From Haloarcula rara (GTDB lineage: Archaea > Halobacteriota > Halobacteria > Halobacteriales > Haloarculaceae): a DNA stretch of 64,000 nucleotides. A program made the position numbers and the translations under genes. Of the stretch, positions 19,477 to 29,251 are shown piece after piece. The notes below the pieces were generated by a model. The model searched no databases, was not told the origin of the DNA, and saw only the letters and a list, made by a program, of their open reading frames with translations. The first letter of the stretch is position 1; the number at the start of each line of letters is the position of its first letter. The stretch spans positions 992,001 through 1,056,000 of the forward strand of contig NZ_CP119785.1 of the NCBI RefSeq assembly GCF_029338235.1. The letters are read 5' to 3'.

Positions 19477-19750
19477 CAGCCAGAAAGCCCCGGCATGCTA
19501 CACTCGGGGGACTCGCTGTCGTTCGAAAGATGGCTGCGCCGTCTTTCGTGATGACGAGAGAGCAAAGCTCTCTCGAACCACGCTCCTCGCCTTCGGCTGC
19601 GGTGTCTGCTCACGGGCCGTAGGCCCGTTCGCACGTGCCGAGGCGCGTAGCGCCTCGCGCCTTACGTCGTCCACCGTCGTGTAGCATGCCGCCCCTTTCA
19701 GTCCCACCCGCGCCGGCTGGCCAACCAGCTACGGGCGGGGCATTCTGGCC
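19477..19750 (-). repeat. Structured dispersed repeat, copy A (degenerate)
   Basis: A 274-bp element in the cobD-cobY gap. Read on the minus strand, it has an outer stem (19737-19750 with 19477-19491), a GC-rich core hairpin at 19692-19740, and an inner stem of perfect 12-base arms GGCATGCTACAC/GTGTAGCATGCC (19492-19503 and 19679-19690). Inside the inner stem are short hairpins, several with perfect arms and three-base loops (19555-19575, 19612-19628, 19639-19657). The 5' arm of the core hairpin is partly deleted compared with copies B and C. No protein is encoded. Confidence 0.8.
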
Positions 19751-19782
19751 TTCGAAATCAGCAGCGTTGCAAGATAATTCAG

Positions 19783-24748: not shown

Positions 24749-24778
24749 CAAAACGAGTCCGCCCTCTCCGATTTGAAC
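24749..24778. repeat. Partial copy of the tRNA-Tyr 3' end (attachment-site-like)
   Basis: Thirty bases match the 3' part of the tRNA-Tyr gene and flanking bases (24899-24928) with one mismatch, in direct orientation 150 bp away. The copy covers the acceptor 3' strand, the T stem and part of the T loop. Such a duplicate is what integration into a tRNA 3' end leaves behind. There is no integrase beside it, so this would be a remnant. Confidence 0.75.
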
Positions 24779-24907
24779 AGGTGAGAGACGTTCCTGCTCG
24801 GTCGCTTCGCTCCCTTCGCGGGCTGCGGCTCTCGTGTTCAAACCGTGTCGTGGGTGACTCGATAGACGCCGCTGGCTCACTACGTTCGCAGGCGGCGTCA
24901 AAACGAG

Positions 24908-24981
24908 TCCGCCCTCCCCGATTTGAACGGGGGACAAGTCGATCTACAGTCGACTGCTCTACCAGTCTGAGCTAAGGGCGG
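24908..24981 (-). tRNA. tRNA-Tyr (GTA)
   Basis: A 74-base cloverleaf without intron: acceptor CCGCCCT/AGGGCGG, D arm GCTC/GAGC, anticodon stem GTCGA/TCGAC with loop CTGTAGA (anticodon GTA), T stem CCCCG/CGGGG with loop TTCAAAT, discriminator A. The first pair is C1-G72, the identity element of archaeal tRNA-Tyr. CCA is not encoded. Its 3' end is duplicated at 24749-24778. Confidence 0.97.
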
Positions 24982-26233: not shown

Positions 26234-26416
26234 ATGGAGCGTGTGACACTACGGATTCCGAAGCAGCAGATAGAAGAGGTCGAACAGATGGTCGATACGG
26301 GGGAATACCCCAACCGGAGTGAGGCTATCCGGTCGGCCGTCCGGGAGATGCTGTCCGAGCAAGAGGGCTCGGAACGTGCCTCCGAGAAAGACAAACGAAC
26401 GTGGGCGAGGGTGTAA
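26234..26416 (+). CDS. cdrS: CdrS, ribbon-helix-helix cell-division regulator
   Basis: A 60-residue CopG-type protein: beta strand ERVTLRIPK, helix [12 protein letters not shown], helix [12 protein letters not shown]. It ends two bases before the ftsZ2 start, so the two genes are co-transcribed. CdrS was shown in Halobacterium to activate ftsZ2 and coordinate division. The start at 26234 gives the exact family N-terminus; a longer frame from 26204 does not. Confidence 0.9.
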
Positions 26417-26418
26417 CG

Positions 26419-27630
26419 ATGCAGGACATCGTCAACGAAGCCCTCGAACGCGACGAGCAGGAACAGCAGAAGCTGTCCGACGAGGACGTCGACGGGTTCG
26501 GTGACCCCCGCATCGTCATCGTCGGCTGCGGTGGCGCCGGCAACAACACGGTCAACCGGCTCTACAACATCGGCGTCGAGGGCGCCGACACCGTGGCCAT
26601 CAACACGGACAAACAGCACCTCAAGATGATCGAGGCCGACACGAAGATACTGGTCGGCAAGTCCCTCACCAACGGTCTCGGCGCGGGTGGCGACCCCTCG
26701 ATGGGCGAGCGCGCGACCGAGATGGCACAGGGGACCATCAAGGAGGTCCTGGGCGATGCGGACCTGGTCTTCGTCACCGCCGGTATGGGTGGCGGGACCG
26801 GGACCGGCGCGGCGCCGGTCGTCTCGAAGATCGCCAAAGAGCAGGGCGCCATCGTGGTCGGCATGGTGTCGACGCCGTTCAACGTCGAGCGCGCCCGCAC
26901 GGTGAAAGCCGAGGAAGGCCTGGAGAAGCTTCGCAACGAAGCCGACTCCATCATCGTGCTGGACAACAACCGCCTGCTCGATTACGTCCCGAACCTGCCC
27001 ATCGGCAAGGCGTTCTCGGTGATGGACCAGATCATCGCCGAGACCGTCAAGGGCATCTCGGAGACCATCACCCAGCCCAGCCTCATCAACCTCGACTACG
27101 CCGACATGACCTCGATCATGAACCAGGGCGGCGTCGCGGTGATGCTGGTGGGTGAGACCCAGGACAAGAACAAGACCGAAGAAGTGGTCAAGGACGCGAT
27201 GAACCACCCCCTGCTGGACGTGGACTACCGCGGCGCGAGCGGCGGGCTCGTCCACATCACCGGCGGCCCGGACCTCACGCTGAAGGAGGCCGAGGGCATC
27301 GCTCAGAACATCACCGAGCGACTGGAGGCCAACGCCAACGTCATCTGGGGCGCCCGCATCCAGGAGGAGTACAAGGGCAAGGTCCGAGTCATGGCCATCA
27401 TGACCGGCGTCCAGTCCGCACAGGTCCTGGGGCCGTCCACCCAAAAGCAGGCCAACAAGTCCCGCGAGGCGATTCAGGAGGTCGACGACGGCACCTCCTT
27501 CGACGCCTCCGAGAACTTCGAGAGCGCCGGCGGCGCCGGCGGCAGCAGTGCCGGCTACGGCGAGACGGACGGCGGCCGCAGCACGAAAGAGAAGAACAAC
27601 GGCCTCGACGTCATCCGGACGAGCGAGTAG
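26419..27630 (+). CDS. ftsZ2: Cell division protein FtsZ2
   Basis: A 403-residue tubulin-family GTPase. The signature GGGTGTGA is at 124-131, the nucleotide-binding [10 protein letters not shown] at 34-43, and the catalytic T7 loop NLDYAD at 224-229. The C-terminal tail is Gly/Ser-rich with a charged end. The linkage to cdrS identifies it as FtsZ2, which drives ring constriction, rather than FtsZ1. The stop is followed by a GC-rich gap that holds repeat copy B. Confidence 0.95.
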
Positions 27631-27734: not shown

Positions 27735-28222
27735 CAGCCAGAAAGTCCCTGGAGACGCTTCGCGTCTCCCGACCCTCGCGGAGCCTTCGGCTCCGCTCAG
27801 TCCCACCCGTAGCTGTTTGACCAGCCAGCTTGGGCGGGACTGAGAGGGGCACTGCTCTCAGCGAACCCCGGCGAAGTAAGCACTGGAGCGAACGCAGTGA
27901 GCGAAGGGCGTCGTTCGAGAGAGCGAAGTCGTCCGAGAGAGCAAAGCTCTCTCGTGATGGCGAAAATCTTCGATTTTCGGACGACTCTCTCGTGATGCTG
28001 CAAGACCGAAGGTCTTGCACAGATCGCGAATCTCCGATTCGCTCACTCACGAAAGGCGCTACGCGCCTTTCGGGCGACAGCGAGCCGCGGGTCGCGAGGG
28101 ACCGAAGGTCCCTCGTCTTGGCGAGCGGGCCTTGCGCGGCGCTACGCGCCGCGAAGTCGAGGCGGTGGAACCGCCTCGCACGGCCCGCGAGCCAAAGCTG
28201 AGAGCAGTGGGACTTTCTGGCT
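27735..28222 (+). repeat. Structured dispersed repeat, copy B (long hairpin array)
   Basis: A 488-bp element filling the ftsZ2-ncsA gap. The outer stem has perfect 14-base arms (27736-27749 and 28209-28222), the core hairpin has 9-base arms CTCAGTCCC/GGGACTGAG (27796-27844), and the inner stem has perfect 13-base arms (27850-27862 and 28197-28209). Ten further hairpins have perfect 7-10-base arms and loops of exactly three bases: 27751-27769, 27778-27796, 27934-27954, 27961-27979, 27999-28019, 28026-28042, 28050-28072, 28095-28115, 28135-28153 and 28158-28178. No protein is encoded. Confidence 0.88.
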
Positions 28223-28258: not shown

Positions 28259-29251
28259 TCAGACTGCTTCCAGCGCCTCGAGCAGGTTGCACTTCCGACA
28301 GATGTCGCGAGCGGTGGGCGCACCGCAGTTGTCACACTCGCCGAAGTCCCTATCGCTACTCTCGCCGCCGAAGGCGTCGGCCGCCAGCGCGGCGAGTTTC
28401 TCGTAGCCCGCCATGATCGAGTGGCGGGTCCCGGGATGGTTCTCCTCCAGCCCGAGCATCAGCTCCTGAATCTCGCCGCGGTAGGCCTCGGAGGCGTGGG
28501 GACACTCGGTGATGTGAGCCGGGAGGTCGCGAAAGCGAGCGTAGAGCGCGATTTCCTTCTCGGGCACGTCACGCAGGGGCTTGGCCCTGGGGACGTGGTG
28601 GTCCTGTGGCTCGCGTGTCTGCTCCGTGGGCGCGTCGCCGCCCTCGAACGGGCCCAGCGAGGCGTCGAAGTGCTTGGCGATCTGGTCGACGTCGCCCTCC
28701 AGGAAGTTCATCAGCGCCGTCTCGGCCTCGTCGTCTAAGTTGTGGCCCGTCAGCAGTTTGTCCGCGCCCAGTTTCTCGGCGTAGCGCGAGAGGATATCGC
28801 GGCGGAAGACCCCGCAGTACGCACAGGCGGCCATCCCCTCGGGGTCGTCCTCGACGACGTCGTCCATCTGGACGCCGAATTCGGACTCGTAGGAGACGAC
28901 CTCGTGGCGGATGCCCAGCTCCTCGGTGAGTTCCTCGCAGGCGTCGAGGCTCTTGTCGCGGTACCCCTCGATACCCTCGTGAATGGAGAGGGCGACGAGT
29001 TCGATTCTGGGGTCGCGTTCGAAGATGTCGTACAAGATGTGTGTGAGGACGACGCTGTCCTTGCCCCCGGAGAGACCGATGACCCAGGTCTCCGGGTCCT
29101 CGGGCGTCGCGTCGTCGGGAACGAGGCCGTCCTCGCGCACCCGGCGGCGCAGGCGTTTCTCGACGGCCCGACAGAGGTGGTCCTCACAGAGATAGAGGCC
29201 GGAGTAGGCCGCGTGCAACACCGCGTCGGACCCGCACTTGTCACACTCCAT
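28259..29251 (-). CDS. ncsA: tRNA 2-thiolation enzyme NcsA
   Basis: A 330-residue PP-loop ATPase that adenylates uridine 34 of tRNAs for thiolation, using a SAMP ubiquitin-like sulfur carrier in haloarchaea. SGGKDS is at 61-66. An N-terminal zinc site (CDKCGSDAVLH, CEDHLC) and a C-terminal one (CDNCGAP, CRKCN) frame the catalytic core, which includes CAYCGVFRR with active-site cysteines and TGHNLDDEAET. It converges on ftsZ2. Confidence 0.93.
   Translation of the reverse strand: MECDKCGSDAVLHAAYSGLYLCEDHLCRAVEKRLRRRVREDGLVPDDATPEDPETWVIGLSGGKDSVVLTHILYDIFERDPRIELVALSIHEGIEGYRDKSLDACEELTEELGIRHEVVSYESEFGVQMDDVVEDDPEGMAACAYCGVFRRDILSRYAEKLGADKLLTGHNLDDEAETALMNFLEGDVDQIAKHFDASLGPFEGGDAPTEQTREPQDHHVPRAKPLRDVPEKEIALYARFRDLPAHITECPHASEAYRGEIQELMLGLEENHPGTRHSIMAGYEKLAALAADAFGGESSDRDFGECDNCGAPTARDICRKCNLLEALEAV

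Follow-up and report, generated by a model that had tools for sequence, protein, structure and literature searches.

Triloop hairpin array of a Haloarcula intergenic repeat as a nest of small palindromic units that may move as folded single-stranded DNA

Introduction

REPINs and IS200/IS605 elements move as folded single-stranded DNA, and MITEs have inverted ends related to those of a resident transposon and are accompanied by a target duplication. In haloarchaea, the SMR-A elements of Haloquadratum walsbyi were reported in 2011 from one species; they are about 110 bp long and very uniform within a type, and their movement was called enigmatic (PMC3119063). Here, a 64,000-nt stretch of the Haloarcula rara genome (the window) was analyzed, for which a preliminary description had pointed to an array of perfect hairpins inside an intergenic repeat. 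We compared the array with these systems and with the same kinds of hairpins in other haloarchaea.

Results

The repeat belongs to a type of intergenic element that ends in AGCCAGAAAGYCCC and is found in Haloarcula-type genomes. The end pattern has 121 matches in the 3.28-Mb genome; congeners contain 0 to 149 matches to the end motif per genome, and in the same sample the motif is nearly absent from other families. Named records with the motif come from Haloarcula/Halomicroarcula and also from Haloarchaeobius, Halorussus, Halovenus, and Halosegnis. About 50 elements were examined, and one plan was observed throughout: an end, a left module, a core hairpin, a right module, and an end. Tandem half repeats of 45 to 48 bp, consisting of AACAGCCAGAAAGCCCC plus unique filler, lie beside several elements (L070, 17498-17691; L086; L087), and five viral contigs (L242-L246) carry the 17-base end motif AACAGCCAGAAAGCCCC. 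A search of the 64,000-nt window with Rfam at gathering scores gave tRNA as the sole match and no curated structured-RNA family. One end of the tRNA-Tyr gene is copied 150 bp away (36 nt, 92%; 24749-24784 and 24899-24934), which resembles a remnant attachment site. The copies of the repeat in the window and the parts of copy B are as follows.

19478-19755, no strand: copy A, with three triloop hairpins and a U1 unit at 19518-19581
26401-27630, plus: ftsZ, one flank of copy B
27736-28222, no strand: copy B, intergenic repeat between ftsZ and the TtuA/NcsA-like gene
27736-27749, plus: left end of copy B, AGCCAGAAAGTCCC
27750-27796, plus: U2, two hairpins (GGAGACGC-TTC and CGGAGCC-TTC), adjoining the core stem
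27797-27850, plus: conserved core hairpin, TCAGTCCCACCC...GGGCGGGACTGAGAGGGGC
27851-27862, plus: 5′ arm of the 12-bp right-module stem, paired with 28197-28208
27911-28077, plus: long unit TCGTTCG...GGGCGA, with hairpins in the order CGAGAGAG (split), TGCAAGACC, GCGAATC, CGAAAGGCGC
27929-27984, plus: U1, TCGTCC-hairpin-TGATGG-hairpin-GGACGA (R1 model match at 27928-27985, E = 5e-15)
28091-28197 (end approximate), plus: U6, GAGGGACC-N3 plus CTTGGCGAGCGGGC..GCCCGCGAGCCAAAG; unsplit form in L045
28131-28182, plus: two-hairpin unit (CGCGGCGC-TAC and CGAGGCGGT-GGA) that splits the second hairpin of U6
28197-28208, plus: 3′ arm of the 12-bp right-module stem, paired with 27851-27862
28209-28222, minus: right end of copy B, inverted repeat of the left end
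28259-29251, minus: TtuA/NcsA-like tRNA-thiolation gene, the other flank of copy B
51477-51629, no strand: copy C, short, without a triloop array

The preliminary description had counted eight consecutive perfect hairpins at 27934-28178, with arms of 7 to 10 bases and loops of exactly three bases, all of which were recovered by our scan:

start 27934: arm 9, loop AAA
start 27961: arm 8, loop TTC
start 27999: arm 9, loop GAA
start 28026: arm 7, loop TCC
start 28050: arm 10, loop TAC
start 28095: arm 9, loop GAA
start 28135: arm 8, loop TAC
start 28158: arm 9, loop GGA

Two further hairpins claimed to precede the core are present at 27751 and 27778, both with the loop TTC, and the contrast drawn between copy A (several such hairpins) and copy C (none) is correct. 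In 1,000 dinucleotide shuffles of the array, a mean of 0.051 and a maximum of 2 hairpins were found, compared with the 8 observed. Triloop hairpins with arms of at least 7 bases occur at 6.3/kb in the elements, a density not approached in other intergenic DNA (0.57/kb) or in coding DNA (0.21/kb). The arms had been regarded as unrelated in sequence, which is wrong as a general statement: they recur across the genome (AGAGAGC occurs 17 times, with 9 different loops) and share one pattern, in which a purine-rich 5′ arm ends in C (119/123) to give a C-N3-G tip. Copy B as a whole is predicted to fold into a single nested tree on either strand (−182.9 and −180.4 kcal/mol; z of about −16 with DNA parameters).

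All ten hairpins of copy B parse into recurring multi-hairpin units that have a fixed order and fixed linkers and are nested. The array is therefore best read as a nest of mobile units, usually of two triloop hairpins each, inserted inside one another. Each unit recurs elsewhere with its order and linkers kept and its loops different. U2 occupies the equivalent place, with other loops, at L059 in the same genome and at L134 and L145 in the relative G009, while the hairpin order and linkers of the long unit are also found in L082, L059, and Natronococcus occultus plasmid 2 (L257). U1 lies inside the long unit and splits its first hairpin, GAGAGAGCGAAG^CTCTCTC, at 27928/27985; a mirrored case of nesting occurs in L082. 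That small palindromes are captured within the repeat, one of two origins proposed in the preliminary description, thus stands in part, as the captured object is a multi-hairpin unit and not a single hairpin; clean sites reveal whole-unit insertion. We saw no sign of hairpins arising de novo one at a time, since all hairpins of the array belong to unit types seen elsewhere. Away from the AGCCAGAAAG ends, the triloop pair GTCGGGCGGC-N3 and GAGGGACC-N3 was seen at L038 (12892), L039 (7482), L050 (17565), L079 (10162), L089 (13280), and other loci, also as triplets with CCGGAATCGCCGC-N3.

U1, the unit studied in most detail, is approximately 56 to 66 bp long, with the consensus TCGTY-hairpin-TGATSA-hairpin-RACNA; its statistics are based on an alignment of 24 real copies (A2) or on direct scans. 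In the alignment, the hairpins are two in number and inverted, and each comprises two outer pairs, a foot with a 3x1 internal loop, a stem, and a tip of 3 bases; 98.2% of the cells form pairs. Covariation is 0.199, compared with 0.074 in shuffled alignments and at most 0.108 in slid versions, and linker base 36 covaries with outer base 67 (GC 13, CG 9). A covariance model of U1 (R1) was used to scan genomes and matched 185/194 Halobacteria genomes in 64 of 65 genera; the number of candidates scored per genome had an upper limit, and both strands of one copy may match, so that these counts are not copy numbers. In a sample of the phylum, R1 matched 19/19 Halobacteria and 0/101 other genomes. 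No published description of U1 was found in the literature. Spread of U1 by phages was set aside, as the phage collection searched for U1 gave no match. In Haloferacaceae-like genomes, a structure that contains U1, an outer stem GAANTTTTGC/GCAAAANTTC, and a third triloop hairpin begins directly after stop codons, with U1 itself some 16 nt downstream and always in gene sense, at L259, L260, L261, L262, L264, L266, L268, L289, L298, and L303.

Filled and empty sites could be compared in one TnpB transposon aligned across seven haloarchaea, where two copies contain a U1-type unit and five do not. In the five U1-free copies, GGATGGGG is joined directly to the downstream sequence, which is CCTCTTTGA in four; in Halovenus salina and Natrarchaeobaculum, the unit lies exactly between the G and the C of this junction (G^C), with no target duplication. 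Each of these two copies also contains one other two-hairpin unit, inserted elsewhere in the alignment. The Haloprofundus site is not an empty one, as a diverged U1 is present there. Units are thus inserted whole and precisely, without target duplication, and they nest. No clean empty site was found for an entire AGCCAGAAAG repeat. Several U1 copies lie in TnpB transposons, and many lie in other repeats.

Turnover is evident between the source genome and G009, in which a neighboring gene is 93% identical and the elements are mostly at matching intergenic sites. Of 58 hairpins compared at 14 syntenic loci, not one is common to both genomes. A G009 element at a different locus (locus C) matches the right part of copy B over 127 bp with 94% identity. 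Within this match, a GAA tip in one genome corresponds to TTC in the other, a single case that resembles the flipping of a hairpin.

The tips follow a strict rule. Element hairpins have a loop of 3 bases in 123 instances and of 4 in one. In units selected solely by their flank and linker letters, hairpin length was odd in 134/136; 121 were perfect down to a 3-base loop, and 11 had one mismatch. Perfect hairpins differ per site by approximately 0.05 in the arms and 0.65 in the loops. Among 132 tips, 46 are GNA and 45 are TNC (69% together), compared with a genomic C-N3-G expectation of 5.2% each. On the opposite strand, TNC tips read as GNA, and neither form is preferred relative to the orientation of the element (29:29). 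GNA loops on G-C stems form exceptionally stable DNA mini-hairpins (PMC4686876). Given this stability and the lack of strand preference, what constrains the tips is likely how stable a hairpin the DNA of either strand can form.

The modules begin with a stem that is exactly 12 bp long in most copies and differs in sequence in nearly every copy. Stems of at least 7 bp are present in 68/79 modules, with 59 distinct sequences among the 68, and 97.9% of 864 pairs are Watson-Crick, compared with 4% paired when partners are swapped. The rare mismatches in the 12-bp stems of G000 and G009, read towards the core, are A.C in 8 cases, G.T in 1, and other in 9, the counts being non-independent; the skew may reflect a strand asymmetry.

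Discussion

The reading we favor, with a probability of roughly 0.6, is that the array consists of REPIN/SMR-like non-autonomous palindromic units whose mobile form would be a pair of hairpins folded from single-stranded DNA. A unit would contain mostly two hairpins (about four in one long version) with exactly three-base, C-G-closed tips, and would be excised and inserted as folded single-stranded DNA, each time as an entire unit at a single position in an older palindromic repeat or in a different unit. Recognition would depend on a fold made up of base-paired arms and a tight tip, and the letters of the tip would be irrelevant beyond stability. The stems would stay perfect through selection at the folded stage or because one arm is copied from the other. 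We infer the single-stranded intermediate, a moving protein, and the reason for the perfect stems; movement as folded DNA is suggested by how the units fold, by the stability of their tips, and by insertion without target duplication.

Several observations count against this reading. In a general test of U1 insertion into hairpin tips, a stem of at least 5 bp spanned the insertion point in 3/64 cases, compared with 9.5 in shuffled sequence, and clear tip splits are few, so that insertion always into tips is unsupported. Across the genus, the number of IS200-type TnpA (Y1_Tnp) genes does not follow the copy number of the repeat (Spearman 0.06), so TnpA copy number was rejected as the driver, and several U1-bearing genomes lack any Y1_Tnp match. 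The known recognition by bacterial TnpA-REP is strand-specific (PMC8266576), whereas the tips here are strand-symmetric.

Alternatively, the elements could be structured RNAs, 3′-end or terminator-like, with hairpins kept by selection on RNA folding. The covarying stems and conserved linkers are consistent with this view, as are the Haloferax hairpins that have been reported upstream of termination sites (PMC7237163) and about a dozen Haloferacaceae U1 copies located 10 to 20 nt, mostly 16, past a stop codon in gene sense; these copies also weigh against the mobile-unit reading. However, loops are exactly 3 bases and not 4, and the oriented strand carries GNA and TNC tips at equal frequency, which points to a constraint on DNA hairpins and not on one RNA. 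Because the left module is the reverse complement of the right, no single transcript displays the same unpaired letters in both. G.T mismatches in U1 are not in excess over A.C (2 versus 4); the counts in the 12-bp stems, too small to weigh either way, give a G.T:A.C ratio of 1:8 towards the core and 8:1 on the other strand. The elements also lie in every gene context, divergent pairs included. We consider this structured-RNA reading unlikely, while a function in RNA is possible, above all in Haloferacaceae. A bidirectional terminator for convergent genes was rejected on account of the mixed gene contexts.

It is still less probable that the hairpins arise or are perfected singly in place, through fold-back template switching (quasipalindrome correction), and build up in the loop. 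If an arm were copied in one step, the stems would be diverse yet perfectly paired, as the 12-bp stems nearly are, but hairpin order and linkers are conserved across families and insertions at clean empty sites are unit sized, which indicates that arrays grow by whole units. Templated correction could nonetheless maintain perfect arms with free loops. A by-product of base composition, conceivable in a G+C-rich genome where triloop hairpins exceed expectation outside the elements too, is rejected by the shuffle test and the density contrast.

A broader version of the mobile-unit reading is tentative and itself rather doubtful: a class-wide archaeal system of hairpin units, spreading as folded single-stranded DNA and inserting into one another, whose stems diversify fast yet are kept paired by arm copying, so that DNA shape and not sequence is inherited. 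The inherited trait would then be the 3-base, C-G-closed, GNA-type tip together with fixed stem lengths.

The present data supply a minimal unit together with its fold and the exact product of its insertion, as well as a covariance model that matches almost every haloarchaeon sampled; copy B serves as a native array in which nested insertions are recorded. The spread of transposase-free palindromes, and perfect stems with drifting tips, are now open to testing.

Among known systems, the AGCCAGAAAG repeat shares with MITEs its short length, its inverted ends, and its numerous copies between genes. It differs in its modular interior, swapped between loci, and in that no parent transposase was identified among short end-to-end pairs in the 1.2 Mb read; U1, for its part, lacks a target duplication. 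The near-terminal palindromes of haloarchaeal PATE and IS200/IS605 elements (PMC3119063) are likewise hairpin based, and U1 is found in TnpB transposons and PATE-like hairpins, but those hairpins mark transposon ends, whereas U1 has been inserted into such elements as an entity of its own. REPINs and REP-BIMEs share with the units two inverted hairpins, an extragenic location, an irregularity low in the stem, and non-autonomy (PMC3116915, PMC8266576). U1 has two inverted REP-like hairpins with covarying feet (TCGTY/TGA and TSA/RACNA), both of which contain an asymmetric internal loop that is conserved. The units differ from REPINs in their free, strand-symmetric tips, mutual nesting, and archaeal hosts; a GTAG tetranucleotide is absent from the foot in the 24 copies of A2, where GTY is followed by CG, and Y1_Tnp counts and presence revealed no RAYT/TnpA-REP link. 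SMR-A is the closest published kind, likened by description and not by the sequences of HqIRS42/43/55: it is small, has inverted ends, lacks a target duplication and a matching transposase, and often lies within PATE or IS605-type elements (PMC3119063). U1 agrees in its inverted ends and in the G^C site, where nothing is duplicated; by description, the units here differ from SMR-A in being 56 to 66 bp long, with two hairpins, free triloops, a class-wide distribution, and mutual nesting.
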